DNA of 64,000 nt, taken from assembly GCA_964017235.1 (NCBI GenBank), contig OZ024929.1:157775609-157839608 (forward strand). The letters are read 5' to 3'. The notes beneath the pieces are model-generated. The model did not search any database. It saw only the letters and a list, made by a program, of their open reading frames with translations, and was not told where the DNA came from. Position numbers and translations under genes: made by a program. The stretch comes from Sabellastarte sp. h YS-2021 (Eukaryota; Annelida; Polychaeta; Sabellida; Sabellidae). This document shows positions 18,491-63,500 of the stretch, in pieces; the stretch's first letter is position 1, and the number at the start of each line of letters is the position of its first letter.

Positions 18491-18520
18491 ATGTCAGCTG
18501 ACTTGTCAGTCAGCTGACAT
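18491..18520 (+). repeat. Start hairpin of element C
   Basis: Twelve perfectly paired bases on each side of a six-base loop. It is the same structural position as the start hairpins of A, B, D, E, F, G and H, with an unrelated sequence. Confidence 0.85.
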
Positions 18521-19966
18521 TATGGCATCACTCTGCGGTGTCCGTGTACGCGTCTGTGTGAACAACTTCTCCTCCAAAACTACAAGGCCCAGAGACCAAG
18601 GCATGCAGATCTGTTTGTTCGTCTGTTTGCTAGAGCCATTATAAGTGAGGTACCCCCCACCCTAAGTGTGAAAATTTCAACACTTTATCACAATTTTCTC
18701 ATTGACTATTGCAGGGATTTCTGTCATATCTTGCACATATGTACTAGGCCACAGGTAGATTCCCTTGTGTGAGTATCAGACTTGGATCTGTCTTAATTAT
18801 TTTTTTATGAATTTTTAAAATAAGTTTTAATGTATTAAAGTGAGATTGTAGATGTGTAGCTCATACCATAGCTGAGTAATAGCTACTTTGATGTTATCCC
18901 TTTTGATTTGAGTCAGTTATAACTTGAAAACTATTGCATTAAGAATATTTTGTTTAAATATGTTGTTCACCTACTTTTGGTTCAGCTATAACATAGAAAA
19001 ATTGCAGACCTGTAGCTTATTTCAAAGCTGAGCAATAGCCTTTTTGAGGTTCTTACAGTTGAGTAAATCAATTGTAACTTGAAAACTATTGTATTTACAG
19101 TATTTTGCATAAATATGTTATTCAGTTACTTTTGGGTCAGCTATAACATGGTAAAATTGTAGACCTGTAGCTCATTGCATAGCTGAGTAATAGCTACTTT
19201 GAGGTTCTTACTCAACACCAAATCATTTATAACTTGAAAAGTATTGCATTTAGAGCATTTTGTTAAAATATGTTAGTCCGCTGCTTTTTCCATAGCTACA
19301 ACATGGTGAGTAACTACAATGTCTATCTCAATAGCTAAGTGAGTTATAGCTACTTTTGGACTTGTCAGTAACTTCCATCATGAGTAAAATCACTTGTAAC
19401 TTGAAAACTATTGCATTTAGAGAATTTTGTGTAAATATGTTATTCAGCTACTTTTGGGTCAGCTATAACATAGTAAAATTGTAGACCTGTAATACCTACT
19501 TTTAGGTAATACCTACCTACTTTTAGGTTATCACTGTTGACTAAATCACTTATAACTTGCAAAGTATTGCATTTAGATTATTTAGTTTCAGTATGTTATT
19601 CACCTATTTGGGGGTCAGCTATAACATAGTAAAATTAAAACTATTGCATTTGCAATATTTTCTTTAAATATGTTTTTAACTTACTTTTTACACCTTAACA
19701 GTTACCTTCTTACTTTCCTTCTGAACACCATTTCCAGGGCACAACTTTACCATACTAACAAACTTTACCATACTAACAAACAGACAGGACTGGAGTAATA
19801 TATAGAATCACCACGACCAGACGTGCAGTCGGTATTGCAAGTAGAGTTTTTGATGAATTTTTGGGAAAAAAAGAGGATCAAGTGTCGACCAATAAACAAT
19901 TCTTAAACTAGGTCACTAGTAAATATTTGGATCCTGAATCACGTGACCTAAACATCCAAATTTATT

Positions 19967-20102
19967 GTATCCCCAGACGAAAGTCGGGGATACTTAGGAT
20001 TCAGTACGGTCATGCCGCCGCCGCCGCAGAGATTTCCTTTTGGACGCGATAACTTAAAAAATATCTTAGTTAGAACTTTCAAATTTGGTATGAATTTGAG
20101 TA
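19967..20102 (+). mobile_element. Element B, 5' head
   Basis: A start hairpin GTATCCCCAGAC-gaaa-GTCGGGGATAC (one unpaired A) at 19967-19993 is followed by a CCGCCGCCGCCGCAG stretch and GATAACTTAAAAAATATC. After about 135 bp the sequence passes into type C satellite, so only the head is visible. Further heads lie at 48030 and 58941. Confidence 0.7.
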
Positions 20103-20921
20103 AAATCACTTGTAACTTGAAAATTATTGCATTTAGAGAATTTCGTATAAATATGTTTTTCAGCTACTTTTGCGTCAGGTATAACAATGTTGAAATTTCA
20201 GACCTGTAGCTTATTGCATAGCTGAGTAATAGCTACTTTTAGGTTATCACTGTTGAGTAAATCAGTTAGAACTTGAAAATTATTACATTTAGAGTATATT
20301 CTTTAAATATGTTGTTCACCTACTTTTGGATCAGCTATATCATTGTAACTTTCTTTGCAGATCTGTAGCTTATATCATAGCTGAGCAATAGCTATTTTGA
20401 GGCTATCACTGTTGAGTAAATTAGTTAAAACTTGAAAACTATTGTATTTACAGAAATTTGTATAAATATGTTACTCAGCAACTTTTTAGTCAGCTATAAC
20501 ATAGTAAAATTGCAGACCTGTAGCCCATGGCATAGCTGAGTAATAGTTACTTTCATGTTATCACTGTTGAGTAAATTGCTTGTAACTTGAAAACTGTTGC
20601 ATTTAGAGAATTTTGTTTAAATATGTTATTCATGTGCTTTTGAATCAGCTATAATATGGTGAAAAATGCAGACCTGTAGCTCATGGCATAGCTGAAGAGT
20701 AGCTATTTTCAGGTTCTCACTGTTGAGTAAAACAGTTTTAATATAAAAACTATTGCATTTAGAGCATTTAGAATATGTTATTCACTACTTTTCTGTAAGT
20801 TATAACATAGTGAACATGCAGACCTTTAGCTCATTGCAGAACTGAGCAATAACTACTTTCAGAATATAGCTATTGAGTAAATCAGTAGTAACTTGAAAAA
20901 TATTACATTTAGAGTATTTTT

Positions 20922-21999
20922 AGTCGAATCTTTGATTCGAGTTATGTACTGAGTTGTGGCCGCGATTTTAAATTCGCCGTTTAAGCCCTTAAATATCAAA
21001 TTCTGCATAATATTTGTTCACATATCGGTACATTAAGGTGTATATTATACACTCTGCCATTTTGAAGATTTTTAATGCTTTTATTCAGTTATATTTTATA
21101 AAGTAAAAAGCTTGTCTAGCACTACGTCTGGCTTTCTATAAAGTCCCGGATGTCCTAGAAACTATTGTGTTTGCTATTGTGATGGCCTACTCGAACGAGT
21201 CTTTTTTAACCGTTTCGTCTGCTGGTTTCTAGACGTTGAAACCCCAATTAATTTGTCTGCTGGTGTATCACGCACTCACTGTTAATGTAAAATAGTTGTC
21301 TGCGCATCTCCCCATTTGTCAAACAAATAAACCACAAAGAAATTAATGAATGAAGTGACGTCACGGTAGTACTACACCTTTGCCGTTCAGCCAATCAGAA
21401 TCGACAATGAAAATTTTCAAACTTCGTAGTTCTACATTCAACCACTCGAAGGCGCTTTTGCATGTCCTAGAAGTTATGGTAAATACAGCATAATCTGTTG
21501 CTCCCTATTTTCGCCCATTGTAGAAACAACACACGAACAGGAAATATGCTGGTAGTTTTCATCTTAAACCAGCCTCGGGAAACCCCCACAAAGAACTGCC
21601 GTGACTGCGCATATTTGCTCATTAATATTAATGAGGCAAGTCCGTGAACAGGAAATATGCTGGTAGTTTTCATCTTAAACCAACCTTGTAAAATATTGTC
21701 GCCAAACCCCCTCAAAGAACTGCCGTGACTGCGCATGTTTGCTCATTAATATTAATGAGGCAAGTCCGTGGACAGGAAATATGCTGGTGGTTTTCATCTT
21801 AAACCAGCCTTGTAAAACTGCGCATCTACAGACCCTTTATATTTGTAAACAAATACCCATCTCGCGACACAAATCTGAAAACTTCTGTAAAAGTGGTTTC
21901 CAAATGCGGGCGATAATACAGAGTTTACAGATTTCAACACCCAGTCCTGTCCTAAGATTAGACTCTGTGGTTGGGTGAAAGCTAACCACTGGACTCTTG
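20922..21999 (+). mobile_element. Element G inserted in the type C array
   Basis: The start hairpin AGTCGAATC-ttt-GATTCGA is at 20922. The 3' end has a perfect stem GTGGTT/AACCAC (21967-21989) followed by TGGACTCTTGT. The flanking satellite reads GAGTATTT before and CTTTAAATATG after; intact units elsewhere read GAGTATTTTCTTTAAATATG, which places the insertion between two T bases. The element is about 1.08 kb, non-coding, and contains type J repeats at 21530-21810. Confidence 0.75.
21530..21810 (+). repeat. Type J tandem repeat
   Basis: Three units of about 115-130 bp contain ACAGGAAATATGCTGGTAGT, TTTTCATCTTAAACCAGCCT, AAAGAACTGCCGTG and the perfect palindrome CTCATTAATATTAATGAG. The same units form blocks in both orientations at 31200-33430. 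Confidence 0.88.
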
Positions 22000-23396
22000 T
22001 CTTTAAATATGTTATTCTTCTAATTTTTGGTCAGCTATAACATAGAAAAATTGCAGACCTGTAGCTCATTACATAGCTGAGAAATAGCTACTCTAAGGTT
22101 CTCACTGTTGAGTAAATGAGTTGTAGCTTGAGAACTATTGCATTTAGAGAATTTTGTTTAAATATGTTATTCACCTACTTATGGGTCAGCTATAACATAG
22201 TGACCTTGTAGACCTGTAGCTCATTGCATCGCTGAGCAATATTTGCTTTGAGGTTTTCACTGTTGAGTAAATCAGTTGTAACTTGAAAACTATTGCATTT
22301 AGAGAATTTTGTATAAATATGTTATTTAGCTACTTTTGGGTCAGCTAAAATTTCAGACCTGTAGCTTATTGCATAGCTCAGTAATAGTTACTTTGAGGTT
22401 ATCACTGTTGAGTAAATCAGTTAATACTTGAAAACTATTCCATTTAGAGTATTTTCTTTAGATTTTTTATTCACCTATTTTTGGATCAGCTATAACATAG
22501 TAATTTTGCAGACCTGTAGCTTATATCATAGCTGAGCAATAGTTTTTTGAGGTTATCACTGTTGAGAAAATTAGTTGTAACTTGAAAACTATTGTATTTG
22601 CAGAAATTTGTATAACATGTTATTCAGCAATTTTTGTCAGCTATAACATAGTAAAATTTCAGACTTGTAGCTCATTGCGTAGCTGAGCAATAGCTACTTT
22701 CATATTATCACGGTTGAGTAAATTGCTTGTAACTTAAAAATTGTTGCATTTAGAGAATTTTGTTTAATCTTTTATTCATGTACTTTTCAATTAGCTATAA
22801 CATAGTGAAATTGCAGACCTGTAGCTCATGACATAGCTGAGGAATAGCTATTTTGAGGTTCCCACTGTTGAGTAAATGAGTTGTAACTTGAAGTTCTATT
22901 GCATTTACAGTATTTGTTTGAGTATGTTATTCACCTACTTTTCTGTCATCTATAACCTAGTGAACTTGCAGACCTGTAGCTCATTGCAGATCTGAGTAAC
23001 AGGCTAACAGCTACTTTTAGAATATAGCTGTTGAGTAAATAAGTTGTAATTTGAAAACTATTACATTTAGAGTATTTTGTTTATTCTCCTAATTTTTGGT
23101 CATCTATAACATAGAAAAACTGCAGACGTGTAGCTCATTACATAACTGAACTTTAGCTACTATGAGGCTCTCACTGTTGAGTACATGAGTTGTTACTTGA
23201 AAACCATTGCATTTAGAGAATTTAGTTTAAATATGTTATTCATGTACTTTGGAATCAGCTATAACATAGTAAAAATGCAGACATGTAACTCATGGCATAG
23301 CTGAGCAATAGCTGTTTTCAGGTTCTCATTATCTCCCGCCGGCCGGCCGGGAGATTATAAAACGCATTCCGTGCGTGTGTGCGTGTGTTCGTGTGT

Positions 23397-26300
23397 TATT
23401 GAGTGTCAAGCTTTTATAAAGGGCTGTACATCACACTGGTTGTTTCTCCTTTGCCTTTTCAATGTTTTTTATGACCTTATTGCTTATGTCCTTTCATTTG
23501 ATGCTGTTATTTCACACCTAGGACCATAGCTAAGTGAGTAATAGCAATGGTGGCTACTTTGAGTAAAGTGCTCATAACTCCAAAACGAGTGCATTTAGAG
23601 TGTTTCTGTAAAATACGTTGTTCAGCTACTTTCTCCATGCCTACAAGATGGTACCATTTTTAGGGTTCTATCTTCATAGCTAAGTGAGTAATAGCTATTT
23701 TCTGTTATTAACAATGAGCAAAATGAGTAAATTGATTTTGTCTTTGTAACTGTTACTTACAATATTGGCCTGAAATATGTTGTTCAACAACTCCTTCATG
23801 TACTATATCATGGTGAGGTGTCCAAGGTGTAGCACCATAGCTAACTGAGTAATAGCTATACTAAGTTTAACATTTGACCGTTGAGCAAGTCACTTATAAC
23901 TCAAAAACTATTGAATATAGAGGATTTTTGTCGAATATGTTGTTCACCTATCTTTTGGATATACTGTATTGTGAATTTTCACAGCTGTAACTCCATAGCT
24001 AACTGAGTAATAGCTACTTTGATGATAACCATAATGAGTAAATGGCTTATATCTTCAAAAGTATTGCAGCTACACAATTTTGTTCCAATATGTTGTTCAG
24101 CTACCATCTCCACAGCTACAACATGGTCACTAGTTTGGAAGTGTGTCTCCATAGCTAAGTGAGTAATAGCTACTTTGTCAATTTTTAATGATAACCATAA
24201 TGAGTAAATGGCTTATATCTTCAAAAGTATTGCAGCTACACAATTTCTCTCAAATAAGTTGTTCATCTACTTTTTTGTGAACTGTAACATATTTAAGTTT
24301 CACAACTGTTGCTCGATGTACAAGTGAGTAATGGCTACTTTATTGCTACTTTTGGTGAAAATGTGAAAAATGACAAATATCTCGCAAACCGTAATAGCTA
24401 CTTTGTCAATTTTTAATGATAACCATAATGAGTAAATGCCTTATATCTCCAAAAGTATTGCAGCTACACAATTTCTCTCAAATAAGTTGTTCATCTACTT
24501 TTTAAGTCATTCATCTACTTTTGGGAGAGCTTTCACATGGTGAAGTTTCAGACTCGTAGCTAATTACTCACCTACTGAAAATGAGTAAATGCTATTGAGT
24601 GTGTGTCACGCTTTTATAAAGGGCTGTACATCACACTGGTTGTTTCTCCTTGGCCTTTTCAATGTTTTTTATGACCTTATTGCTTATGTCCTTTCATTTG
24701 ATGCTGTTATTTCACACCTAGGACCATAGCTAAGTGAGTAATAGCAATGGTGGCTATGTTGAGTAAAGTGCTCATAACTCCAAAACGACTGCATTTAGAG
24801 TGTTTCTGTAAAATACGTTGTTCAGCTACTTTCTCCATGCCTACAAGATGGTACCATTTTTAGGGTTCTATTTTCATAGCTAAGTGAGTAATAGCTATTT
24901 TCTTTTATTAACAATGAGCAAAATGAGTAAATTGATTTTGTCTTTGTAACTGTTACTTACAATATTGGCCTGAAATATGTTGTTCAACAACTCCTTCATG
25001 TACTATATCGTGGTGAGGTGTCCAAGGTGTAGCACCATAGCTAACTGAGTAATAGCTATACTAAGTTTAACATTTGACCATCGAGCAAGTCACTTATAAC
25101 TCAAAAACTATCAGATATAGAGGATTTTTGTCGAATATGTTGTTCACCTATCTTTTGGATATACTGTATTGTGCATTTTCACAGCTGTAACTCCATAGCT
25201 AACCGAGTAATAGCTACTTTGATGATAACCATAATGAGTAAATGGCTTATATCTTCAAAAGTATTGCAGCTACACAATTTTGTTCCAATATGTTGTTCAG
25301 CTACCATCTCCACAGCTACAACATGGTCACTAGTTTGGAAGTGTGTCTCCATAGCTAAGTGAGTAATAGCTACTTTGTCAATTTTTAATGATAACCATAA
25401 TGAGTAAATGGCTTATATCTTCAAAAGTATTGCAGCTACACAATTTCTCTCAAATAAGTTGTTCATCTACTTTTTTGTGAACTGTAACATATTTAAGTTT
25501 CACAACTGTTGCTCGATGTACAAGTGAGTAATGGCTACTTTATTGCTACTTTTGGTGAAAATGTGAAAAATGACAAATATCTCGCAAACCGTAATAGCTA
25601 CTTTGTCAATTTTTAATGATAACCATAATGAGTAAATGCCTTATATCTCCAAAAGTATTGCAGCTACACAATTTCTCTCAAATAAGTTGTTCATCTACTT
25701 TTTAAGTCATTCATCTACTTTTGGGAGAGCTTTCACATGGTGAAGTTTCAGACTCGTAGCTAATTACTCACCTACTGAAAATGAGTAAATGCTATTGAGT
25801 GTGTGTCACGCTTTTATAAAGGGCTGTACATCACACTGGTTGTTTCTCCTTGGCCTTTTCAATGTTTTTTATGACCTTATTGCTTATGTCCTTTCATTTG
25901 ATGCTGTTATTTCACACCTAGGACCATAGCTAAGTGAGTAATAGCAATGGTGGCTATGTTGAGTAAAGTGCTCATAACTCCAAAACGACTGCATTTAGAG
26001 TGTTTCTGTAAAATACGTTGTTCAGCTACTTTCTCCATGCCTACAAGATGGTACCATTTTTAGGGTTCTATTTTCATAGCTAAGTGAGTAATAGCTATTT
26101 TCTTTTATTAACAATGAGCAAAATGAGTAAATTGATTTTGTCTTTGTAACTGTTACTTACAATATTGGCCTGAAATATGTTGTTCAACAACTCCTTCATG
26201 TACTATATCGTGGTGAGGTGTCCAAGGTGTAGCACCATAGCTAACTGAGTAATAGCTATACTAAGTTTAACATTTGACCATCGAGCAAGTCACTTATAAC

Positions 26301-26674
26301 TCAAAAACTATCAGATATAGAGGATTTTTGTCGAATATGTTGTTCACCTATCTTTTGGATATACTGTATTGTGCATTTTCACAGCTGTAACTCCATAACT
26401 AACCGAGTAATAGCTACTTTGATGATAACCATAATGAGTAAATGGCTTATATCTTCAAAAGTATTGCAGCTACACAATTTTGTTCCAATATGTTGTTCAG
26501 CTACTATCTCCACAGCTACAACATGGTCACTAGTTTGGAAGTGAATCTCCATAGCTAAGTGAGTAATAGCTACTTGGTCAATTTTTAATGATAACCATAA
26601 TGAGTAAATGCCTTATATCTTCAAAAGTATTGCAGCTACACAATTTCTCTCAAATAAGTTGTTCATCTACTTTT
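23397..26674. repeat. Higher-order repeat, 1.2-kb period
   Basis: A 1.2-kb block built from type A/C-like units begins near 23397, 24594 and 25794. Copies 2 and 3 are exactly 1200 bp apart and differ at only a handful of positions (for example CATAGCT/CATAACT near 26396 and GTGTGTCTCC/GTGAATCTCC near 26541). Copy 1 is more diverged. The third copy is cut after about 880 bp by element F and continues at 34689. Confidence 0.95.
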
Positions 26675-26710
26675 TATCTAGGGTTGGCCATCTCGGGCCA
26701 ACCCTAGATA

Positions 26711-27139
26711 CTGTTATGGGATTTTTCGTGTCTTTCTTCATGAATTTCGGGCGTTTCGAGTGGAATCTAATTGCCGTTTTCGGATCTTTTTGAATAATTT
26801 CTACTACTAAACGTTCTGTAACTTTCACAGTTTTCGATTTTTTGTTTTTAAGATTTGTGGAGGGATTTTTATTATTGACCTCAGCAACCTAATTAAAAAC
26901 AGGAAATGAACTGTGCTGATAAGATCTATCTGGACCGCGTTTCTCTTGAAAACATCTTTTCTTTAGTAAAATCTACTAAACCTCGGAAAAAAACGTCTTT
27001 TGATTAGTCTGGTACCCTATCTATTTTTCTTCTGGGACCCCCGGGAAATTGTAAGTTGTGTGAACCGAAAATATTTTCAGGAGACAATGATAACCTGATG
27101 ACTGGGTTCTGAGGCTATATTCACAAAAAGTATCAAGCC
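26711..27139. other. Unique interior of element F
   Basis: AT-rich non-coding sequence with no similarity to other parts of the window. It includes CGTTCTGTAACTTTCACAG at 26812, weakly like the core module of the other families. Confidence 0.4.
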
Positions 27140-27300
27140 CAGGGGCCGTATTCACAAAGATTCTTATTCTTAGAATTATGCTTATTCTTAGAATTTTTCT
27201 TAGAATTGTCATTTTTCTTAGAAAAATTCTAAGAATAAGAATTTTCCTTTGCCTATTCACAAAGATTCTTATTCTTAGAATTATACTTATTATATATATA
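27140..27300. mobile_element. Foldback MITE fragment
   Basis: GGGGCCGTATTCACAAAGAT leads into repeated ATTCTTATTCTTAGAATT words, with inverted copies (AAAATTCTAAGAATAAGAAT) in the middle and a second TATTCACAAAGATTCTTATT at 27254. It resembles the ends of the MITE at 6379 in the opening word only. Confidence 0.6.
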
Positions 27301-27950
27301 AGTCACAGAGAAGAATATTGTTTATTATTATTTGCTGTGCATAGTACCGGAACCGCTCGTTGTTTCGCCCATGAGCGATAAATGCAGATTTTTGTCAAAG
27401 TAGGGGGTGGGCGTTTAATTGATCGTAAATAAGCAATAAAACCTTAATTTCAGTGATTCTTTCATTTAGCATGTGTTTTTCTGTGCTTTTTATGGCCATT
27501 TTACCCTCTGTTACAGTGAACAATAATTGACTTCAATTTACGGTTTTTCCCGTAATAAAAACAAGGTGGAGATAAATGAGGAAAAAATCAAATAAAACTC
27601 ACCTAAATAGAAGAAATATATAGTGTGGTGACATGTATCATGGTATTTATCCAATAAATCACTTTTATGTCCAAATAACATTTTGATTTTGTTTAATCGT
27701 AAGTGCAGGTAAATTGCAGGTGTCACAAGAGAACTACAGGTTTCATCCAAAAGTTTTGAACCCTCTTTATAGAACAGGACAAAATATTTAAGGTCGTTCA
27801 AATAAAAAGAGAGACATACACAGTGGATTTAACTTCTTGTATTATTTTTATATTGAATATTTAGGTAAAAAAACATGAGAAAAAAATGATTTTAAAGTCT
27901 GAAAAAAGTCAAACTTGGCACTTAACCAAAATATCTATCTATTACTAGTC

Positions 27951-30566
27951 TTAATCTGAATCAATATCTGACTCCCCAAATCCATCAAAATCAAGGTCAG
28001 AATCATCATCTGACTCAAACAACAATGCCATGGCTTCATCTCTGAGATTATCCACCCTATCTGCAGCACCCAGTGCATCTGCCATGTTATCTGATAGCTG
28101 TGCATCCTGGGAACCATCCAGATCCAAACTGATGCCACAACATCTGAACGACTTCTTTATGACCTCTTCTGATATTTTGGACCAGGCGCGAGAGACCCAG
28201 TTAATGACATCCTGCCTGGATGCCTGCTTGAGGTTGCCCTGTGGGGTCCTGATGTCAGCCTCCCTCCACTTTCTCCACTCTTTTCGCATTTCACTCTTAA
28301 AGGGGGCATTCCATGAAACATCTGCCGGTTGGCAAATAGGAGTGCAACCACCTCAAAACGAAAAAAAAAAAATAAAAAAATGTTCACTGTTTTGAAGTTT
28401 TATTTATTTTATTTATTTATGGTTTTTTGCATGCCTAGTACCTTATCGGTCATATTGTGATGGGTAGTTGGAAGGATGGAGGAAACCAATAGATACAGTT
28501 GGTCAAGATTTTGTTCTGCAAACTACTGACCAATGGTAAGAAACTACCAGCTGAAGTCAGGTTGGGATTCAAACTCTGATCTCAGAGGTGCGAGATGATG
28601 AAGTTTCAAAATGGAATAGTAAAAATCTATTTTAAAAACAGGTAAAAAAGACGTAAAATTTTAAATATTTTCAGAACTTATGAACAGCATTCTTATCTGA
28701 GATATGTCACCTGGAATAAAAGTGACATCTGTATCTTTGCCCTGCAGTTGTTCCCTTGTGTCTGCCATAGTGTGGATTCTGGCCCTGTCCAGTACCAGCA
28801 GCCTTCTAACGTCATTAACATTTGGCCCCCAAACCCGATTGATCCATGTGCCCATCAGGGGTCCAGTCATCCATCCATTTTTAGATGCTGTCAGTCTCAC
28901 ATTGTTTGGTATTCTAAGGGTTTGTGAGACTCTTGGGGCGGTCACACCATTCCTCTCCTTTAAGCATATAAATGCTGGCTTTTTGTGGCCTGAGGCTAAT
29001 GCACATAGAGCAACAGTGAACCCTCTCTTGGTTCCCCCAGTGGTGGCAATTCTGACAGTGTTGCTACCAATAGCTTCATTGGTTGACTTTGGAGCCATAT
29101 CGAACCTACACATAGTCTGATCCATGTTTCCTGAAAAAAAGTTGTTTAAGTACATGTAAAACCAGTGTCGATGCTATATATGGCGAGTCATAACAAGCTT
29201 GGTCATTATTACAGCCCAACAGAGGAAGCACAGGAAGCAGAAAGTCTCTGATGTAAATCATAGTGTACTGCATATAACCACGGGCAAGATGATGCGTGTA
29301 ATTTTTGTTGTTGCTTTTTACTAACAGAAACAGTGAATTTAAATGGGGTTTTACAATGTAAATGATAGTTTACTCGATATGACCAAAGGTAAGATGATAC
29401 ATGTAATTTGTGTAGTTGCTGTTTGCTAACCAAGACAGTGCATCAAGTGGGGGTCTTTCCATTGTAAAAGTCCTTTTGCTTGACATGATCAAAGGTGAGA
29501 TGATACGTGTAATTGTGTATTTGCTGTGTGCTAACCGAGACAGTGCATCAAGTTGGGGTATTTCCATTGTAAAAGTCCATTTGCTTGACACAAACAAAGG
29601 TGAGATGATACGTGTAATTGTATATTTGCTGTGTGCTAACCGAGACAGTGCATCAAGTTGGGGTATTTCCATTGTAAAAGTCCATTTGCTTGACACAAAC
29701 AAAGGTGAGATGATACGTGTAATTGTGTATTTGCTGTGTGCTAACCGAGACAGTGCATCAAGTGGGGGTCTTTCCATTGTAAAAGTCCATTTGCTTGACA
29801 TGACCAAAGGTGAGATGTCATACTACAACGAAGAGTTGGAAGGGCAGAGGAAACCAGTACATACAGATTGTCAGGGTTCTGAACTGTAAACTGCCGACCA
29901 ACGGCAAGCAATGCATGTAGCTTTAATAACACTTTTTAAAGATACAATGTCACAAAATATGCAATGAGTTCTAAAAACAACAAGATGTTCTAAAAACAAA
30001 AAATTTAAGTGTCAAGTATGCTGTCTCACCTATATTGTAGAGGGTATACTGATGCTGCCTTCTTTTATTCTTTATGTCTGTGACAAATCCTTTAATCAGT
30101 TCCCCATAATCTTCAGGGATCTTCTGGGATTCATTGGTCCCCTTAAGCAATGCAATTCTGTTCCTCTTTTTCCATCGTTGGAGCCACCCATCACTACCTT
30201 TGAACTGCTCAAACTTGGGATCAGGCTGCTCGTCATTTACCTCTCTTGCAATTTCAAGGGCTTTTTCCTTCAAATGACTGTTGCTCACTGGAATTCCACG
30301 TTCTCTTTCACTTAATAAATAATCCAGGACACCAAACTCTACCTCATTATCAGAAATCTCTCTCCCATGTGACATTTTCCTCCTCTTCTTTGCAGCTGAT
30401 CCTCTGGAATTTGCCATGAGTTCCTGCTCCTGATTGAGCCACTCCCTGACTCTTTTTCTGTCGATACCATACTCCCCTGCAGTCTTTCTTATGCTATTCC
30501 CATTATCTTTATGGTGCTAATGACACTTAATTTAAACTCAACAGTATAAGACCTATGCCTAGGCAT
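27951..30566 (-). CDS. pogo-type transposase, three exons, one frameshift
   Basis: Exon 1 (30566-30030) starts MPRHRSYTVEFKLS, has a frameshift near 30510-30515, then KTAGEYGIDRKRVREWL (HTH) and a CENP-B-type HTH (GSDGWLQRWKKRNRI). Exon 2 (29130-28711) begins at NMDQTMCRFDMAP with the first catalytic Asp and includes LVLDRARIHTM with the second. Exon 3 (28351-27951) starts GCTPICQPADVSWNAPFK, holding the third Asp, and ends in an acidic tail (ESDDDSDLDFDGF). Splice ends AATATAG/GTGAGA, TTTTCAG/GAAAC, CCAG/GTGACA and TTTTGAG/GTGG restore the frame (YNIGNMDQT and IPGGCTPICQPADV). The enzyme would cut and join the element ends. Apart from the frameshift it looks functional. Intron positions are inferred. 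Confidence 0.85.
28395..28600 (-). mobile_element. SINE copy in transposase intron 2
   Basis: It matches the body of the SINE at 1886-2121 in inverse orientation (CAAACTACTGACCAATGG, GGAGGAAACCAATAGATACA) with an ATTTATTTATTT tail at 28400. The tRNA head is diverged; a B-box-like word remains near 28567. Confidence 0.75.
29209..29815. repeat. 105-bp tandem repeat in transposase intron 1
   Basis: Units with GGTGAGATGATACGTGTAAT, TGCTGTGTGCTAACCGAGAC, CAGTGCATCAAG and TTTCCATTGTAAAAGTCC recur with exact 105-bp spacing (29494, 29599, 29704), with more diverged units back to about 29265. The array ends directly at a SINE fragment. Open frames on both strands here come from the repeat and show no protein motif. 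Confidence 0.93.
29810..29920 (-). mobile_element. SINE fragment next to the 105-bp array
   Basis: AACTGTAAACTGCCGACC and GTTGGAAGGGCAGAGGAAAC match the SINE body at 1990-2060 in inverse orientation. Its tail end faces the 105-bp array. Confidence 0.8.
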
Positions 30567-31199
30567 CTTTCCTGCTTGATATTAGAGTACTAAAAATCCG
30601 AAGAAATGGTGGCACAAAACTTTTGAGAAAACAGGTTATTTAGAGAGAGCAGAAGACGCTGTGACAAAACTTTTTGCGAAACATGTCATCAGTTTATTTA
30701 CGTCAGAAGGAAGTATAATCAATACTGGTTGCTAGGCAGATATCTGAACAAAAGGACGTAACATTTAATGGTAGTATTTATTCTATTTTCTCACTGAAAC
30801 ACATTTTTTTTGGTTCTGACATTTATAAAATAGTATGATTTACGTCTTATTCTGCTGTATTTTGGACCATTGTGCTTAGTTTTCCGTACGTTTTATGTAA
30901 GTTGGGGGGGGGGGGGGGGGGCGTTTACTCGACTATGAGCGTAACAACGAGCGGTTCCGGTAATTTTTAAAACAATTATCTTAATATTGGACCAATTTTC
31001 CTCAAATCAAAAAGAACACAACCTCTAGAAATTTGCCTTTAAATTGCTATTAATATTATATTGCTAGCTTCAATAAAACAATCACAAAAATCTATAATAA
31101 TTTACCATGAGTCTTTCAAATATTTACTGCGAATCTTCCAATATTGACCGCATATCTTCCTGACCGTGTATATTCCAGATACCCAGTACTAGCATATAA

Positions 31200-33430: not shown

Positions 33431-33434
33431 GATT

Positions 33435-33892
33435 ATATTTCTCTAAATATGTTATTCATCTACTTTTGTGTGAGCTATATCGTATTAAAATTGCAGCCCT
33501 ATAACTGATTGCTTAGTTGACCAAAACCTACTTTGACCTGTGCCTCATTGCATCACTGAATAATAGCTACTTTGATGTTATTCCTGTTGAGTAAATCGGT
33601 TATAACTTGAAAACTATTGCATTTACAATATTTTGTTTAAGTAAGTTATTCACCTACTTTTGAGTAAGCTACAACATAGAAAAATACCAAATCTGTAGCT
33701 TATTTCATAGCTGAGCAATAGCTAATTTGAGGTTCTCATTGTTGAGTAAATCAGTTGTAACTTGAAATTTATTGGTTTATAGTATTTTGTTTGAATATGT
33801 AGTACACCTACTTTTAGGTCAACTATAACATAGCGAAGTTACAGACCTATAGCTCATGGCATAGCTGAGCAATTGCTACTTTCAGGGCTGTC
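33435..33892 (+). repeat. Type C satellite units
   Basis: Two to three diverged 150-170-bp units (TATAACTTGAAAACTATTGC, TGTTGAGTAAATC) lie between the type J block and E1. Confidence 0.8.
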
Positions 33893-34600: not shown

Positions 34601-34688
34601 ACCTTTCACACATGAAACACACATTAAGCCATTCCACTCTGCCAAACCCTAGATATGTGACCGATTCATTCGGTCACTGATTGCTTGC

Positions 34689-38914: not shown

Positions 38915-38980
38915 AAATATGTTGTTCGCCTACTTTTTGATGTAGTGCGGCGGGAGATCATACCACGGCAGTGGTCTTGT

Positions 38981-39250: not shown

Positions 39251-39350
39251 TGCAGGGCACAACTTTTGTGTCCCTTTCTTCATTCACTTCTACTCTGAAA
39301 CTCAAAACACAGAGTAAGCTGACACAGAGCCCATTCACGGGCACTGATTG

Positions 39351-48500: not shown

Positions 48501-51500
48501 GGTACCTGTTGTTTTGTGGTCTCAGCATTCCTCTATAAGACCAATGCTGGCCTTCCAGATGTGAAGGCAATAACATGAAGAAGGGCAGTAACTTAAAAAT
48601 ATTTTATATAGACCTTTCTAATATAGGTGGGTGTATATGGGTAAGGCCTCAGAGCCTATTGTCTCCTGGCCCCTCGAGACTATATTGTGATGTTGTAAAG
48701 GTTAAATATGGGGTATTTCTTTACATATTACGACCAGTACTCACTTACAGAAGGACAGATCATCCTATGGCTGAAATATATATCTTTCCTCAAAGTCATT
48801 GGCTGGCCTTCAAACATTGGCATGTCTGCCTTTTTCTATATTTTTGGATGTTTTCATTTATAATTCTTATTGCTTGTAGGGTTTCAGAATGTTAAGTCAG
48901 CTTATAGGAAATTATGGGCTGGGAATCTTATAAAAGAGTCAGATTTGACCTTTGACCCCTGCTTCGAGGCCAAACTGAGTTTATGTAGTAAAGTAGCCTT
49001 ATATATTCATTATAATTGGTCCAACAGGTTGGGATATAAAAGAATGTATAAAAACCATGAGTCATAAATCTTAGAAGGGTCAGTTTTTTGTTTTTTTTTA
49101 CCCCTAATTTTGCTGCTTTTGTCACTATAGGACCATAGCTGAGTGAGTAAAAGTACTAGCAGCTACTTTGAGTAAAATGCTTACAACTCCAAAATGACTG
49201 CATTTGGAGCATTTTACTAAAATATGTTGTTCAACTACTTTCTCTTTACCTGCAAGGTGGTACCTATTAACTGTTGCTAAAAGATATCTATCCAAATAGC
49301 TAAGTGAGTCATGCCTAAATTCTGTTCTAAACAGTGAGCAAAAACAGTAAATGGCTTTTTTTTTTTTTTTTTTTTTTTTTGGGGGGGGGGGGGGGGTTGT
49401 TAGATTTTACAGTTAAAAAACCTTGTGTCATCTTTATTATTGGATCTTTTGTGCCAGTCATTATCAGTATGGCTGGATTATCTGTTATGTCACACCATGT
49501 CCTGTCTGGGAAACCCTGTATCAAGACACAATCTCTAGTTTAATCTTATTTTCTTTATTTTGCCACTTGGCCCTTAGATTCCTCCAAATCTCCGAAATCC
49601 ATTTTTGTGACAGTCATTGTCAAATTTGAATCATTAGACCTGTTAATTTCTTAAAAAGGTATGATTTAGAATTAAGCGTCCCACAAGGGACGCTTGTTTG
49701 TGTATGGGAGACCTGCAGGCTCCGGCGGCTCCGGCAGCTCCGCATTTTGTTTTCCTTATAACTCTGTAACCGTTAGGCGGATTCTTTTCAAATTTGGCAG
49801 GTTTATGCAGTAGCCTTGGGGATTTTTTTTGGAATATGCTGCAGTGACATTTCAACCAATCAGAGAGGTCACATGACCAAAAATGTCTTTTTTTTCGATG
49901 GGGAAGCTTGTCCGGATGATAACTTGAAAGGGATTTTATCAATTCACCTGAAACGTGGCAAATACATTCATTCTATTAAAATCTGGAAATCATTAGATTT
50001 TGGCATTGATTGGTTAAGAAATGGCCGAGTAATTAATGATTAATTAATCATTATGAATTTTCCAAATAAGGAAAACACAAAAATGCTTATAACTCGAAAA
50101 CCGTGCTAGATAGAGCGATTTTGACAAAATTTTTGACCCACAGGGTATCTCTGCATAGTAGCTATCCCAATTTTGAAAAAAAAATTTTGTCTCGCCAAAA
50201 ATTGCGGCCATTTTGAATTTTCGAATTTTACACAAAAATTGCAAAACACAAAAATGCTAATATCTCGAAAACTGTGCTAGATGGCGAATTATCTGTTAAA
50301 AGTATTGCAGATAGCCAATTTTTATCTCCCGCCCGGCTCGCCGGCGGGAGATTATAATTTGCACCATGTGTGTCCGTACGTGAGTGCGTGCGTGCGTGCA
50401 TGCGTGAGTGTGTCACGCAGTTTCCTCTGAAACTACTACAGTTACACATTTTTGGGAAATTAGTTGTCCTAATGAATTTTTTGGCTCTTCAATATTTTTG
50501 GGGTTTAGTGAACTTTGGCCTACTTGTGAGTGAGTAATAGCACTTTTAGCTAATATATTTTTTGGCTTATAACTCTCAAACTATTGCATTTGCAGTATTT
50601 TGTTGCAATATGTTGTTCAGCTACTTTGTCAACAGCTACAACATGTAGTTTGGAAGTGTATCTCGATAGCTAAGCGAGTAATAACTACTTTGTCAATTTT
50701 TAATGATAACCATAATGAGTAAATGGCTTATATCTTCAAAAGTATTGCGGCTACACAATTTTGTTCCAATATGTTGTTCACCTACTATCTCCACAGCTAC
50801 AACATGGTCAGTAGTTTGGAAGTGTATCTCCATAGCTAAGTGAGTAATAGCTACTTTGTCCATTTTTTATGATAACCATAATGAGTAAATGGCTTATATC
50901 TTCAAAAGTATTGCAGCTACATTATATCTCTCAAATATGTTGTTCATCTACTTTTTTGCGAACTGTAACATATTTAAGTTTTACACCTGTTGCTCGATGT
51001 ACAAGCAAGTAATGGCTACTTTATTGCTACTTTTACTGAAAATGTCAAAAATCAAAAATATCTCGCAAACCGTAAGAGATAGAGCAATTTCGAGCGAATT
51101 TTTGACCCACAGGGTAGTACTAGAGTATCCTATGCTAAGTGGAAAAAGGTTTGGTGAACTTTGGCGTACTTTTGAGTGAGTAATAGCACTTTTACCTAAT
51201 AATGAGTAAATGGCTTATATCTTCAAAAGTATTGCAGCTACACAATTTTGTTCCAATATGTTTGTTCAGCTACTTTCTCCACAGCTACAACATGGTCAGT
51301 AGTTTGGAAGTGTATTTCCATAGCTAAGTGAGTAATAGCTACTTTGTCCATTTTTTATGATAACCATAATGAGTAAATGGCTTATATCTTCAAAAGTATT
51401 GCAGCTACACGATTTCTCTCAAATATGTTGTTCATCTACTTTTTGGTGAACTGTAACATGTTTAAGTTTCACACCTGTTGCTCAATGTACAAGTGAGTAA

Positions 51501-54500
51501 TGGCTACTTTATTTCTACTTTTACTGAAAATGTCAAAAATCAAAAATATCTCGCAAACCGTAAGATATAGAGCAATTTCGAGTGAATTTTTGACCCACAG
51601 GGTAGTACAAGAGTATCCTATGCTAAGTGGAAAAAGGTTTGGTGAACTTTGGCCTACTTTTGAGTGAGTAATAGTACTTTTACCTAATATAATTACATGA
51701 CTTATATGTGTCAAACTATTGCATTTACAGTATTTTGTCCCAATATGTTGTTCAGCTATTTTCTCCACAGCTACAACATGGTCAGTGGTTTGGAAGTGTA
51801 TCTCCATAGCTAAGTGAGTAATAGCTACTTGGTCAATTTGGAATGAAAAACCATAATGAGTAAATGGCTTATATCTTCAAAAGTATTGCAGCTACACATT
51901 TTCTCTTAAATATCTTGTTCATGTGCTTTTTTGTGAACTGTAACATATTTAAGTTTTACAACTGTTGCTCAATGTACAAGTGAGTAATGGCTACTTTGTT
52001 GCTACTTTTAGTGAAAGTGTGAAAAATCACAAATATCTCGAAAACCGTAAGAGTTAGAGCGATTTCGAGCGAATTTTTGAGCCACAGGGTGGTACAAGAG
52101 TGTCCTGTGCAAAGGGGAAAAATGAAATTTTTCGCCACTTTCGGCGGCGATCTTGGATTTTCGCGGTAAATAGAAAAGTGTCAATAACTCGAAAACCGTA
52201 AGAGATAGAGGAATTTCAAGCGAATTTTTGACCCCACAGGATGGTACAACAGTGTCCTATGCAAAGGGGAAAATCTTCAATTTAGTATTTCTTCCCCTGC
52301 GGTACTCGGCGGGAGATAGATACCGCGGCAGTGGTCTTGTTCTCAAATAATTCATTCGCCTACTTTTGGAAGAGCTTTCACATGGTGAAGTTTTAGACCC
52401 ATAGCTAATTACTCACCTACTCAAAATGAGTAAATGCTAATTATCTCTAAAAGTATTGCAGATAGCCAATTTTTCTCAAATAACTCATTCACCTACTTTT
52501 GGAAGAGCTTTCACATGGTGAAGTTTCAGACCCATAGCTAATTACTCACCTACTCAAAATGAGTAAATGCGAATTATCTCTAAAAGTATTGCAGATAGCC
52601 AATTTTTCTCAAATAACTCATTCACCTACTTTTGGGAGAGCTTTCACTTGGTGAAGTTTCAGACCCATATCTAATTATTCACCTACTCAAAATGAGTAAA
52701 TGCTAATTATCTCTAAAAGTATTGCGGATACCCAATTTTTATTAAATAACTCATTCATCTACTTTTGGGAGTAAATGTGAATTATCTCTTAAAAGTATTA
52801 CAGATAGCCAATTTTTCTCAAATAACTCATTCACCTACGTTTAGAAGAGCTTTCACACACAAAAATGAAAAATTGTGAATATCTCGGAAAAGTGGTCTTG
52901 TTTTCAAAAATTTTTGTCTCACCAAAAATGGTGGCGATTTTGAATTTTCCAAGTTTTTGCAAAACATAAAAATGCTTATATCTCGAAAACTGTGCTAGAT
53001 GGAGCGAATTCAACAAAATTTTTGACCTGCTGGATATCTCTGCAGAGTACCCATGCCAATTTTCAAAATATTTTTGTCTCGCCAAATATAGCGGCCATTT
53101 TGAATTTTTGAATTTTTTGCAAAAATTGCAAAACACAAAAATGCTCATATCTTGAAAACCGTGCTAGATAGCAGACTGCGCTGACTTTGGTTACCACAAC
53201 AGTATAAGGCTAGAAACGGAACATTTTCTTAATACTTTAGCACTCACCTTTATATCCTTTTCGGGACGCTTTGTTTTTGCTATGCAAAAACATTATCTTT
53301 TTGTTTGCGAGCGATCCTCTAGTTTCTAGTTATTTCATTAATTTATTGGCCAGTTTGAAAGTAACTTTACTGATCACATAATTTGCTCTTGGGTCCTGCT
53401 AAATCTTAATTGTTTTTGATATTTACCTAAGTTTACCTTGAATTTATTTACTCTTTCATTGCTGTTTAGAATGCACATACTGGCAGGCTGTCCAAATCAT
53501 AAGTACCCACAGGAAAAAGCAGAGGACACTTATGTTGAAAACATAAGATATGCTGCAGACAGGCTCAAGAAAGTAAGTGTTGTTTTGTATTATGTCTAGG
53601 TCACACCTTTCTGTGAAGTTGTTTCTATACATATTTGCTTTCCAGTAGACAACATCATCCTTATATATCTCGTATCTGGTTAGTGCATGTTGACTTTCAC
53701 CTCTCAAACATGCATGGTTTCATACAGCTAGTGAGATTATGTATTGGCTATTTCAGACATTTTTATAAAGTAGGCCTGAAAGCAAATCTCTCCAAATTGT
53801 GAGGAATCACCCCGAACACATCCTACTCAAATGGGAATTGCAGTGAATGCGTCCTCCCATAATATGAGGCAGATTGAAACCACAATCAAACATACACATA
53901 TCTGTTCAGTTATAGCTCATGGCCCCAGCATGGTAAAGTGTGACCTATGTATAACTGTCTTCAAATTTAAATCTCCATTTTGTCCCTGAATGGCCTCATG
54001 GCATTGATGTTCATGTGTATCCAAGTAGTTCTATCCAATACATTGATGTTCATGTTTATCCAAGTTATCGCCAATGCTCGAGCTGTCTGCAAATTAGGTA
54101 AAGTTATCTCCAATGCTTGAGATGTCTTCAAATTAGGTAAATTTGAGAACACTACTGACAACACACAGAACAATTTCTGTTCATATTGTCTTCAGTTTAG
54201 CTTGTCTTTTTGAAATATATCATCTCTTTTAATTTTTTGCTGAGCACCATTGATCTCAGGCCTTGTGAAAAGAGGTGAGAGGTTTAAACTTGTTGTTTTA
54301 CAGATCTTAGATGCAAATTCGTCAACAAATGCTGACTTTGTATTCATATTTCTTTAACTATGTAACCCACACATATGATGTATAGATCATTAGAAAAGTA
54401 CTTTTACAGAGTTTCAGCTATTTTTGTTATGTTAAGATATGTGCAGTAATAGTGGCGAAATCTCAAGTTATAAAATTAAAGTTTTTACCCCACAGCCCTT

Positions 54501-57500
54501 AAGGGTTGTCGGGGTATTGTTTTCACCCATGGTGTCCGGATGGGCGGGCGGTGGGAAAAAGTTTGTCCGGGCTGTATCTCAGAAACCGTAAGGTGTAGGA
54601 AGTTGATACTTGGTAGGGACATTGGTTAGGAGGTGTAGGTATGCAACGTCATGGCGTGACCTTGATTTGACCTTTGACCTTGCTATAGTGACCTTGACCT
54701 ATAAAATCTTGTCTGGGCTATATCTCAGAAACCGTAAGGTGTAGGAAGTTGATAACTTGGTAGGGACATTGGCTAGGGGGTGTAGGTGTGCAACGTCATG
54801 GCGTGACCTTGATTTGACCTTTGACCTTGCTGTAGTGACCTTGACCTATAAAATCGTGTCCGGGCTATATCTCGGACACTGTAAGGTGTAGGAAGTTGAT
54901 ACTTGGTAGGGACATCGGTTAGGGGGTGTTGGTGTGCAACTTCATGGCGTGACCTTGATTTGACCTTTGACCTTGCCGTAGTGACCTTGACCTATAAAAT
55001 CTTGTCCGGGGTATATCACGGAAAGCGTAAGGTGTAGGAAGTTGATACTGAGTGGGGACATTGGTTAGGGTGTGTAGATGTAAAACGTCATGGTGTGACC
55101 TTGATTTGACTTTTGACCTTGCTGTAGTGACCTTGACCTATAATGCCTTGTCTGGGCTATATTTTGGAAATCATAAGGTGTAGGAAGTTGATATTTGGTA
55201 GGGACATTTGTCAAGGGTTATATGTGTGCAACGCCATGGTGTGACCTGGATTTGACCTTTGATCTTGCATATCTGATGCTATTTTATGTCTCTATGAGGA
55301 TATCTGATACTATTTATCTCTCTTATATCTCTCTTATATCTTTTTACTTGAATCTTGGTTGTTGCACCTTTGGGTGTCTTTTGGTGTAGATTAAGCACTG
55401 TTAAAGTCATATTAGAAGTCATTAACTGTTTTACTTTTGCAACTTCCCATTGTAACAGATGGTATTGCATCAAGTGAGCCACAGGTTTTGCTCCAATTCC
55501 ACATAAAAGCATGTATTGCTACATCTGTATGTATGAGTAATATTCAAAACATCCAAACCATAATTCGACCATACAAATGAAAATCAAAATGGGAGAAGTC
55601 TTAAAGTTACATAATTTTTAGTTTACTGAATTGTCTTGTTTTAATACTTATTCTTTACATGTAATTTCTTTCTCTTAGATGATATTTTCTCTACTTAAAC
55701 ATTATTTGAACACCGACACTGCTCTGAAAGTATCCCAATCTGTGTACTGTTTCACTACTTCTATACCTCATGGTGTTGAAAACTATTTTCCCAGGCTGTG
55801 GGGTACGGGCATCTCTGATGCTATTTTTATAACCACTGATGCCTGTTATTTTGGATGTGTTTCATAACTAATTGTTTGCATTTCTATGGTATATACTAAC
55901 TTATTTTACTAAGTATTGAAGCAAAGTGGTGAATAATAGAAATCAAACCTTGGCTCGTATTTTTAAATGTTATTAATTTTAAAATGTGCAACACTTGGTT
56001 AATTTTTTTGTTTCAGGAAAATATCACAATTCTGGCGGAATTTATAAATAGTCTCTATACAGTGAAAGACTACTTTTTAGATTCTCCAGAAAAAGGTATG
56101 TTAAGGATAATATCACAAATACTTTCATGCATAAAATGCTACATTGGTGCTGAATCTTTACCAACTAGTGTACACATATTTCTTCCAGCCCATTAACTAC
56201 CTGCTCTGATATGATCTGTAAATGTTTGTTGAAAGTGTTGTTATACTCAAATAAGTAAAGTCTTTTGATAAAACATTTGCTGTAGAATCGACGAATTCAT
56301 CTTAATTAATCAGACTTGAAAGTTTTTTACCCCACAACCCTAAAAGGGAAAAAGTTTGTCTGGGCTATATCTCAGAAACTGTAAGGTATAGGAAGTTGAT
56401 ACTTGGTAGGGACATTGGTCAGGGGGTGTGGATGTGCAACATCATGGTGTGACCTTGTTTTGACCTTTGGCCTTGCTGTAATGACCTTAAGTTTGAAAAT
56501 CTTGTTCGGGCTATATCTCAGAAACCATAAACTGTAGGAAGTTGATAACTTGGTGGGGATATTGGTTAGGGGCAGTAGGTGTGCAACATCATGGTGTGAA
56601 CTTTACTTGACCTTTGACCCTGCTTTAGTGACCTTGACCTATAATATCTTATCTGGGCTATATCTCAGAAACTGTGAGGTGTAGAAAGTTGATACTTGGT
56701 AGGGACATTGGTTTGCGGTTTAAGGTGTATAAAGTCATTGTATGACTGTGATTTGACCTTGCACAGCACTTTTGTCAGTGTCACTTTGGAAACTTTGGAA
56801 CAGCAATGTCAGTGTCAATTCAGATTTTGTAGCTTACTATACTTTCACTTTTGAGCCACTTTCTACATGTTTTCCGCAGCATTGCAGCTAATTGAGAAAG
56901 TGGACAGAGGTGATCAGGTGCAATTCCAACTGGTGAGTCATATTCAACTTCAATATATTTGAGAGTGTTCCATGTCAACATCAGACAAATCTAAGGAACA
57001 AACATCAAGAAAGTAAATTTTCTGGAAGAGCTACATCACTGGCGATGTCATAACAAAGAGACCAGTTATTATGACATCATGACCACTTTCCTACGATTAT
57101 GTTTAAATGTATTGGTCAATCAAATGCCTGTATATTAATTAGCACATTTTGACCCATTTGAAGTCATAACAAGCATTGTCACACACAAGTAAATACACAC
57201 ATGGGAAGTCGTTTGTAATAACTAGCAATATTGCTAAGCCTCTGAACTAATAATATACACAGCAAGCTGCAGTAATAATTTTATGTGATCATACGTACTG
57301 TTTATTCAACTGTTGGCTAGGACTAGAACAAGTAAGTTTTTAGCCAACTACTCTATCAGTTATTTCAAGTTGTAAAAGGTTTGCACAGATCATTTAGGGA
57401 ATCACTATTACCTATACTTGGCTCCAAGGAAGAATTAGCAGAGAATTTTGGCCATTTTTGAATGGAGAAAATGGACAAAATTAGAGATTAATTTGGAATG

Positions 57501-60500: not shown

Positions 60501-63500
60501 AAAAAGAAAAATAGTTTATAACAAGATCACTTGGAGAGCACAGACCTCCGCCACAGGACAGTTGCTGGACTTTCAAAACCTACCATTAGCACTGATCTTG
60601 CTTTTTTCCACTCTATTTCATATTTTTGCCGATAGTGATCCAGATCAGTCCCAATTTATTGTTCATGGATCCAGACAGTGATCCAGATCACTCCCAAAAT
60701 CTAATCACTTGTTCCTTGTCATATGGACATATCCTGAAAATTTCACGAAAATCCGTCCATAACTTTTTGTGTTATCTGTCTTTAAAAATTACATTTCATG
60801 GATCCAGAAGATCCAGATAGTGATCCGGATCACTCCCAAAATTTAGTCATTTCTTCCTTTTACCTTTGCAGACATATCCTGAAAATTTCATCAATATCCG
60901 TCCATAAGTTTTGAGTTCTCTTGTTCACAAAGGCACAAACAAATAAACGCACAAACTAACTCACACAAAAACATAACCTCCTTGGCGGAGGTAATAATAG
61001 TGAATCACACAAAATGGGTGCTGCAAAAATACAGTGCTTGTGGTGTGAGAGACGACCTGTCTGGCAATATGTTGGCATCAAGTCGGCGTAATCTAGTTAA
61101 GTAAATGTTACTGGACAATATTCAAACAGATATATCCATAGAAGAATTTTCAGAAAAATGTGTGAAAATGATTTTGCAACTTTATAATCAATGTCTTTAT
61201 ATTTTACAGGATTTATTTCATCTGCAGCTGGTAAAAGGAGATCTCTCTCACAATATAGAAAAATATCTGCCCAAAACAGGTATGTTGCTTGTATGATATG
61301 ATTTGTCAAAGATATAAAATTGCCATTGGTTATGGGACAAAAGCACTCAAATTTTCGCTCTTGGTTTACTCAGAGATTTCATCTGCAAGATTGACAAACT
61401 CAACTGCTTGCTGAAGTAATACATATCGTGTGTATTACACTGAGATTCTCTGAAAACCTTTATATTTACAATCGTTATTACTCCTTTCAACTGTATGTGT
61501 GGCACTTGCCTTGTACATGTTAAGATGTTTGCTTCGGCATCATATTTGAAAGGAGAATGATTTGTTCTGTATGTCCTTTAAACCTTTCAAGTCACACATG
61601 TAGTCAGGGTATTTGAATCTCACAAGAGTTTGTATGTGAGAAATGGTGGCAGTGGACTTTTAACTGAAAAAAATCTGTACCCTGATGAAGGCTGTAGAGT
61701 GAGTGTCACTTAAACATATAATGCAATCACCATATAACCTGTTTAACTCTTCACAATGAAGATTTGTGATTCTAAGTACATGTGTCTTTATTGTTAGGTT
61801 ACATGCAAGTGTCACAAGTGCCTCATAGAGGTGAACCATTTTCACTTGGAGAAATCGATTACCATTACATCTTTGACCTGTTGACAAAACTTAAATACAC
61901 CCAGTGGATTGGATTGGAGTACAAGCCAAGGGGTAAGATAAAAAAAGCACTTGAAAAGCACTACTAGAGTTGCAAAATATACAAAAAAATACCATCAGAG
62001 ATGCCCATACCCCACAGCCGGGGGAAATAATTTTCAACACCATGAGATATAGAAGTAGTGAAACAGTACAAAGATCGGGATACTTTCAGAGCAGTATGAG
62101 TTAATAAAGGTCCAAATAATGTTTAAGTATAGAAAATAATGTCTAAGAGAAAAAAAATGTATGTAAAGATAAAGTATTAAACAAGACAATTTGATAGCAA
62201 GATGACAGCATTAATCAGGAAACTAAAAAATTGTGAAGTTGTAAAATCTATTAACTTGAGAATAACTGTCAATGGAAATAGTACAATTATGTAAAAGTAC
62301 ATTTAATAATGTGTTGTAGCAATCCATATACCTTTGTCATAAGAAAAACTAGTCTCAAATATGGCAGGTGAACACACCTTGGCAGAGCCAACGTTAAAGG
62401 TCACACCATGATGAAACACCTACACCCCCTAACCAATGTCCCTACCAAGGGTTAACTTTCTACACCTTATGGAGTCCAAGAAATAACCCGGAAAAGATTT
62501 TAAAACTCATGGTCACTACGACAAGGTCAAAGGTTAAATCAAGATTACACCATGATGTTGCACATCTACAACCCCTAAGCAATGTCCCTACTAAGTATAA
62601 ACTTCCTACACTTTAAGGTTTCAGACATATAGCCCAGACTAAATTAAAAGATCAAGGTCACTACCGCAAGATCATAGGTCAAATCAAGGTCACACCATGA
62701 CATTGCACACCTACAATCGCAAGCAATGTCCCTGCCAAGTATCAACTTCCTACATCCTATGCTTGCCGAGATATAGCCCGGACAAGATTTTATAGGGTCA
62801 CTACGGCAAGGTGAAAGATATCAAGGTCACACCATGATGTTAACCACCTACATCACCTGACAAATGTCCCTATCAAGTATCAAAATATCAACTTCCTACA
62901 CCTTAGGGTTTCTGAAATATAGCCCAGACAATATTATAAAGGTCGAGGTTACTACGGCAAGGTCAAAGGTCAAATCAAAGTCACACCATGACGTTGCACA
63001 CCTACAACTTCTAACCAATGTCCCTACCAAGTATCAACTTCCTACACGGTACGGCTTCCGAGATATAGCCCAGACTAAATTTTCAAACTCAAGGTCACTA
63101 CAGTAAGGCAAGAGGTCAAATCAAGGTCACGCCATGATGATGCACACCTGTACCTCCTAACCAGTCTCCCTACCAAGTATCAACTTTCTACACCTTACGG
63201 TTTCTGAGATACAGCCCGGACAAACTTTTTCCTGCCACCCGACCGGTGAAAACAATTCTTTGACATCCCTTAAGGGCTGTGGGGTAAAAACTATCAGAAT
63301 GAGTGATATAAAATAGGGTGTGTTATTCTGTTTATTTATTTAGCCCCAGAAAAGTTTTATTGAACAAATGATCTCACAAGATCGAAGGTAATACAATAAT
63401 TGAAAATAATTGATGAAAGATTGAAAATGGCAGTTGGCTGACTGAAAGTATTATATTTTAGAAAAAAGAAATTCATCAGAATTCTGCTTTAGTGGACAAG

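Follow-up and report, generated by a model that had tools for sequence, protein, structure and literature searches.

Nested Helentron-type elements with hairpin-headed ends at one locus of the Sabellastarte genome

Eight repeat families, A to H, lie close together at one locus of a Sabellastarte genome (1.79 Gb, 647 contigs), and the arms of their 5' hairpins are unrelated between families yet pair within each. This raises the question of what kind of element the families represent and why they are so dense at this place. The window, which is the whole stretch of 64,000 nucleotides that was analysed, consists in large part of tandem arrays with periods of 133, 146, 155 and 166 bp. The locus is a stack of Helentron-type rolling-circle elements nested within one another, and the families are, with a probability of about 0.92, non-autonomous Helentrons (HINE/DINE-1-like, with Helitron2-type ends) moved by a Helentron Rep-helicase via rolling-circle transposition. 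A sequence-only reading had suggested Helentron-like non-autonomous elements, and this is upheld by the anatomy of the ends, by joins within T-runs without target duplication, by candidate Rep genes of Helentron type in this genome, and by a piece of a helicase-endonuclease in one copy of family A. An odd-looking locus is thereby settled as nested Helentron-type elements, with borders visible inside the window itself. The copies and fragments in the window are as follows.

15809..15841, plus strand: family A 3'-end fragment (arm, hairpin and tail)
16193..16222, plus strand: family D 3'-end fragment (arm and hairpin)
18491..39353, plus strand: family C element, with the B fragment, G and A1 inside; 5' hairpin 18491-18520, 3' arm 39314-39325 (two mismatches), 3' hairpin 39329-39342, tail to about 39353
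19967..20092, plus strand: family B, 5' fragment only; hairpin 19967-19993
20922..22000, plus strand: family G element in the 155-bp array; 5' hairpin 20922-20942 (one mismatch), 3' arm 21956-21964 (one mismatch), 3' hairpin 21968-21988, tail to 22000
23331..38980, plus strand: family A copy A1 in the 155-bp array, with F inside; 5' hairpin 23331-23355, 3' arm 38949-38958, 3' hairpin 38962-38975, tail 38976-38980
26675..34688, plus strand: family F element within A1; 5' hairpin 26675-26710, 3' arm 34641-34655 (two mismatches), 3' hairpin 34657-34677, tail to 34688
47019..48010, plus strand: family E copy, end approximate; 5' hairpin 47019-47047 (imperfect), degenerate and weaker 3' arm near 47976, then GCATCTCTGATGC
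49674..53324, plus strand: family D element, with A2 inside; 5' hairpin 49674-49695, 3' arm 53263-53271, 3' hairpin 53272-53292, tail ending near 53324 (putative 3' border)
50324..52340, plus strand: family A copy A2 in the 133-bp array of D; 5' hairpin 50324-50352, 3' arm 52308-52317, 3' hairpin 52322-52335, tail to 52340
54487..55825, plus strand: family E copy, end approximate; 5' hairpin 54487-54515 (imperfect), 3' arm 55794-55804, 3' hairpin 55809-55821
60976..60992, minus strand: family H 5' hairpin with 6-bp arms
61985..63285, minus strand: family E copy, end approximate; 5' end near 63285, where the inner arm has decayed; 3' arm 62019-62009

The 5' hairpins of all eight families lie where the sequence-only reading had placed them (A at 23331 and 50324, B at 19967, C at 18491, D at 49674, E at 54487 and also at 47019, F at 26675, G at 20922 and H at 60976-60992). 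Counting both strands, the window holds 25 hairpins that follow a T and whose arms pair perfectly over 8 or more; 20 dinucleotide shuffles, counted identically, gave a mean of 6.35 (range 2-13). Arms are mostly 8-12 bp long, with 15 in F and 6 in H. The description of the start hairpins as perfect was too strong for E, which has unpaired positions, for G, with one mismatch, and for A1, in which only 8 outer pairs form.

The shared plan consists of a stem-loop after T at the 5' end and, at the 3' end, a repeat of the inner arm with a second hairpin and a tail behind it. Within the window, six families (A, C, D, E, F and G) show it at their 5' and 3' ends alike. The copy of the inner arm at the 3' end was recovered for A, C, D, E and F, and also for G, where one mismatch is present; in A the arm and second hairpin were confirmed at 38949, at 52308 and in the fragment at 15809, for which no 5' end was found. 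The C 3' arm carries two mismatches in the window (39314) and one in five genome copies, and the C 5' end at 18491 and 3' end at 39353 probably belong to one element. The plan was not extended to the 3' end of H, since no GGAGGT with AA before or A/T after it occurs in the 14 kb downstream on the H strand; H itself is placed on the minus strand from the sequence that follows its hairpin. In A, B, C, D, F and G the tail closes with similar short motifs (CTTGT, CTAGTT, GCTTGC and others of this sort), and the E tail is unlike those of the other families. The absence of a B 3' end, as reported earlier, is a feature of the window, because this copy breaks off and keeps only about its first 127 nt. 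The B 3' arm is present in 4 of 30 genome loci, complete with hairpin and tail in two and cut at the end of the locus in the other two. In the 39 other scored places the B head match stops at the same base (window 20092), beyond which sequence differs among the copies examined. A damaged B-like head, TATATCCCCAGACGAAAG followed by the 44-nt core motif considered below, lies at 58930-59010 on the plus strand.

The borders of the elements were assessed in genome copies and at joins. The B and C copies (30 loci each, window copy included) were picked by sequence inside the hairpin, best matches first, which favours young copies. The B copies with a readable arm have T at position -1 in 26/27 and at -2 in 26/27, and the 13 of 30 C loci that keep the hairpin within 2+2 changes all have TTT at -3 to -1. 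The sequence-only reading had named borders lying off the hairpins as evidence against its proposal; B and C copies start at the hairpin, and the joins agree. When an element is removed, the joined flanks recreate monomers of the host array in five cases, four of them in the window (F, A2, A1 and G) and one, a C copy, elsewhere in the genome (locus L084). For F, the joined flanks match two sibling monomers at 90/90 nt. The A2 join restores the 133-bp array monomer, the A1 and G joins restore the 155-bp array, and the C copy occupies an A-repeat site like the one that holds F. At the five joins there is no target duplication and only the number of T residues varies; insertion of these elements is thus within T-runs, and the earlier suggestion of insertion between T residues holds for the five joins and for the T flanks of B and C. 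The marks of canonical Helitron1 elements are a 5'-TC end, insertion between A and T, and no 5' hairpin; here no family head begins with TC, insertion is in T-runs instead and hairpins are present.

Candidate enzymes were found in the genome. PF14214 (Helitron_like_N) matches 24 places in this genome and none in 14 control genomes. Rep motif 2 was recovered in 15 of the 24 loci, where the letter before PH or PY is S in seven, W in eight and L in none. Thomas 2014 (PMC4067079) gives S for Helentrons and L for Helitrons, so the W-type motifs fit neither published letter. Their second Helentron mark, F/Y-x-R, was read by eye in 12 of the 15. Four Rep loci (L008, L010, L011 and L013) are nearly the same (about 99%), and L008 is interrupted by a B-like element. 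A Peptidase_C48 (Ulp1-like) match (1.4e-4) lies ahead of the L011 Rep in one open frame (L089:1457-2500). No clear terminal hairpin of an autonomous element was seen in the 5 kb (two 2.5-kb stretches) upstream of L011, and no autonomous element with both ends was seen; the ends of the Rep elements were not reached. A HINE-like module upstream of the L011 Rep does carry a stretch shared with three of the families.

20049, 49758 and 54574 (in B, D and E), plus strand, and L090:125-168 (HINE-like module): 44-nt core

This ungapped core starts 82-87 nt from the 5' end in B, D and E. It was first aligned by eye, so that the leave-one-out test is not blind; in that test each of the four sequences beats 300/300 shuffles, B narrowly (7.8 vs a maximum of 7.3). 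The core score is not reached by A, C, F or G, nor by H without gaps.

Pfam searches on some of the open reading frames of at least 150 aa gave a DDE_1 transposase piece in F (28661-29155, minus strand) and a helicase-endonuclease piece in A1.

38030..38929, minus strand: 300-codon open frame in A1, PIF1-like helicase end fused to an AP-type endonuclease

The frame has no internal stop, runs antisense to A1 about 20 nt from the A1 3' arm, and matches PIF1 (7otj_A, 1.5e-6) and Exo_endo_phos_2 (7.4e-9). A non-LTR retrotransposon was considered as the source of the endonuclease and rejected, since the same frame opens with PIF1 helicase motifs. A fusion of helicase and endonuclease with the same Pfam domain is distinctive of Helentrons (Thomas 2014, PMC4067079), and by its domain matches the frame is the predicted C-terminus of a Helentron RepHel-EN, a published hallmark of that group. 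This C-terminal remnant in A1 is the only part of a Rep-helicase with a C-terminal endonuclease that was found, no intact gene being seen in full. A1 probably arose by deletion from an autonomous A-type Helentron with its gene antisense to its ends. A less probable but serious alternative is that A1 acquired the piece from an unrelated Helentron, or that separate remnants came together to form it, in which case the partner of A would be another element. Three observations would suit capture: the fragment begins close to the 3' arm (about 20 nt), the sequence at this place is different at the two further A 3' ends of the window, and no second copy of the fragment was met among the sequences examined. 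Nevertheless, helicase and endonuclease share one stop-free frame of 300 codons, and one Helentron with an antisense gene is reported in Thomas 2014 (PMC4067079), both of which favour descent from an A-type Helentron.

The sequence-only reading had also suggested recognition of structure rather than sequence, and had called for a test of covariation in the 5' stem. If a single transposase read the folded shape, the sequence of the arms would be free and any hairpin-headed element could be moved. In its favour, arms unrelated between families pair in each, and one B copy (L031) carries a two-sided, compensated change; four other B copies have a one-sided change at that same pair. Within families, on the other hand, arm sequences are conserved and copied at the 3' end. 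At two neighbouring pairs of the D stem, double changes that compensate occur 10 and 25 times, and doubles that combine the same four single changes without compensation occur 22 and 18 times (odds ratio 0.63, CI 0.24-1.65, Fisher p 0.47; exact counts, in which the shared descent of the copies is still included). There is hence no sign that the D arms change together after insertion, and the covariation looked for was not seen at these two pairs. The B stems (29 of 30 loci anchored) are fully paired in 21 copies, with the one-sided change at the eighth pair in four and a damaged arm in four. In C, 6 of the 13 hairpin-keeping copies are fully paired and seven have mismatched or wobble pairs, with none compensated. 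Reading of shape by one transposase is accordingly improbable, and the claim of structure over sequence was not sustained. Compensatory changes between two related Helitron2 elements have been described (Bao & Jurka 2013, PMC3627910), so that stems may count in sources that are still active. Copies already inserted no longer have to pass such a test, and active sources may thus require the stem.

The D hairpin shows a further peculiarity in its loop. Among 100 listed D places (of 9,773; zero mismatches, first 31 Mb of contig C1, counted by hand) the loop is GCAA in 73, TTGC in 14, ACAA in seven, TTGT in two and one of four other sequences in one copy each. TTGC is the reverse complement of GCAA within a fixed outer frame, and the hairpin is therefore inverted in 16 of the 100 listed copies (TTGC 14, TTGT 2) as against 80 with GCAA or ACAA; the plain reverse or plain complement of the loop occurs in none of the 100. 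ACAA and TTGT are each one CpG change away from GCAA and TTGC, and since the shares of this change are similar in both orientations (2/16 vs 7/80, p 0.64), one inversion followed by spread suffices. A degraded TTGT copy in another D background (L062) only hints at more than one inversion. Flipped loops were found neither in 29 anchored B copies (read by eye) nor in 55 A copies with 5-nt loops among 100 listed of 1,008 (hand count), and were likewise absent from 13 C copies and from 10 F places with readable letters among 100 listed. That the D 5' hairpin was physically inverted during transposition is doubtful. The flip/flop of rolling-hairpin replicons offers a comparison. If the inversion did occur in this way, the D terminal hairpin would have taken the form of a folded single strand or a cruciform while being opened, copied or resolved, a step that would fall outside the standard rolling-circle model; if recurrent, it would be a genomic trace of a poorly known intermediate of Helentron transposition. 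No report of such a loop flip is known to us within limited text searches on Helitron, flip and hairpin.

The weakest alternative, that a cut-and-paste DDE transposase moves the families as foldback elements or MITEs, with hairpins that are ordinary terminal inverted repeats, could draw on inverted repeats at both ends, high copy numbers and the DDE_1 fragment within F, but it is already disfavoured and most improbable in view of the five joins without target duplication, the 3' repeat that is not terminal, with a second hairpin and tail beyond it, and the endonuclease-helicase fusion in A1.

With the families taken as non-autonomous Helentrons, a family-specific Rep would nick between the T and the hairpin and one strand would be peeled off. 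The 3' copy of the arm would then compete with the inner arm for pairing to the 5' arm and, with the 3' hairpin, would mark the stop of replication, as in the model of Bao & Jurka 2013 (PMC3627910).

The density of heads at the locus is likely to reflect nested insertion into T-rich arrays. C holds the B fragment, G and A1; A1 holds F; and D holds A2. The diversity of families would arise because elements insert into one another's T-rich arrays. Genome places with heads at up to 3 mismatches number 3,455 for B and 9,773 for D, and those with exact heads 1,008 for A and 173 for F; for C, 40 places were scored out of 2,905 first-look candidates. From these counts about 0.4 heads of A, B, C, D and F are expected per 42.5 kb and six are found here, the expectation being our own arithmetic from lower-bound counts and the window having been chosen for its density. 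No exact head of H, B or D was found in the viral_contigs set.

The window also contains other repeats. An interrupted 30-bp tandem repeat with the period GGGCTGGGGCGGTGACCTCTTCTCCTTGAT lies at 3633-4637, and another repeat, built of tandem units of 107-131 bp and marked by the palindrome CTCATTAATATTAATGAG, at 21580-21817, 31733-32064 and 32951-33144. A reverse transcriptase fragment is located at 9287-10639 on the minus strand. A retroelement at 39948-46274 appears to be DIRS-like, with 173-nt inverted ends that are 99% complementary, matches to reverse transcriptase and RNase H, and a weak integrase-like match.

A diverse set of families with a shared plan was at first regarded as unusual. 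The families are new, and their end sequences found no match in literature text searches, but the hairpin plan is already published (PMC3627910, PMC4067079 and PMC7492417), several families per genome are described in the latter two, and nesting explains the density. In the Pacific oyster, Cg_HINE comprises 11 elements within a single genome, some of them without relationship in any module (Vojvoda Zeljko 2020, PMC7492417). Like the elements described here, these have a 5' subTIR, a complementary inverted repeat 1-12 bp away, a 3' subTIR, a 3' palindrome, and microsatellite and tandem repeats. The arm sequences appear to differ. In that study the oyster HINEs could not be related to an autonomous partner, whereas the RepHel-EN remnant in A1 would tie the high-copy family A to a Helentron enzyme.

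DINE-1/HINE elements and Helentrons (Thomas 2014, PMC4067079) share with the present families subTIRs, a short inverted repeat close to the 5' subTIR, a 3' stem-loop, a TT target without duplication and an endonuclease fused to the helicase. They differ in that some arms here are shorter than the 11 bp of the published family rule and that 8/15 Reps have W in place of S. With Helitron2, the description of which contains no endonuclease domain according to Thomas 2014 (PMC4067079), there are compensatory changes that have no counterpart at the tested D pairs (Bao & Jurka 2013, PMC3627910). The likeness of the ends to Helitron2 is nevertheless close, as its 5' asymmetric terminal repeat pairs with its own downstream nucleotides to form a hairpin, a 3' copy lies just upstream of a second hairpin, insertion follows TTTT, and the repeats of 8-15 bp are found here in all families but H, with its 6-bp arms. 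Helitron2, DINE-1/HINE and oyster HINE types have been grouped as one variant in a Fusarium paper (PMC5148889).
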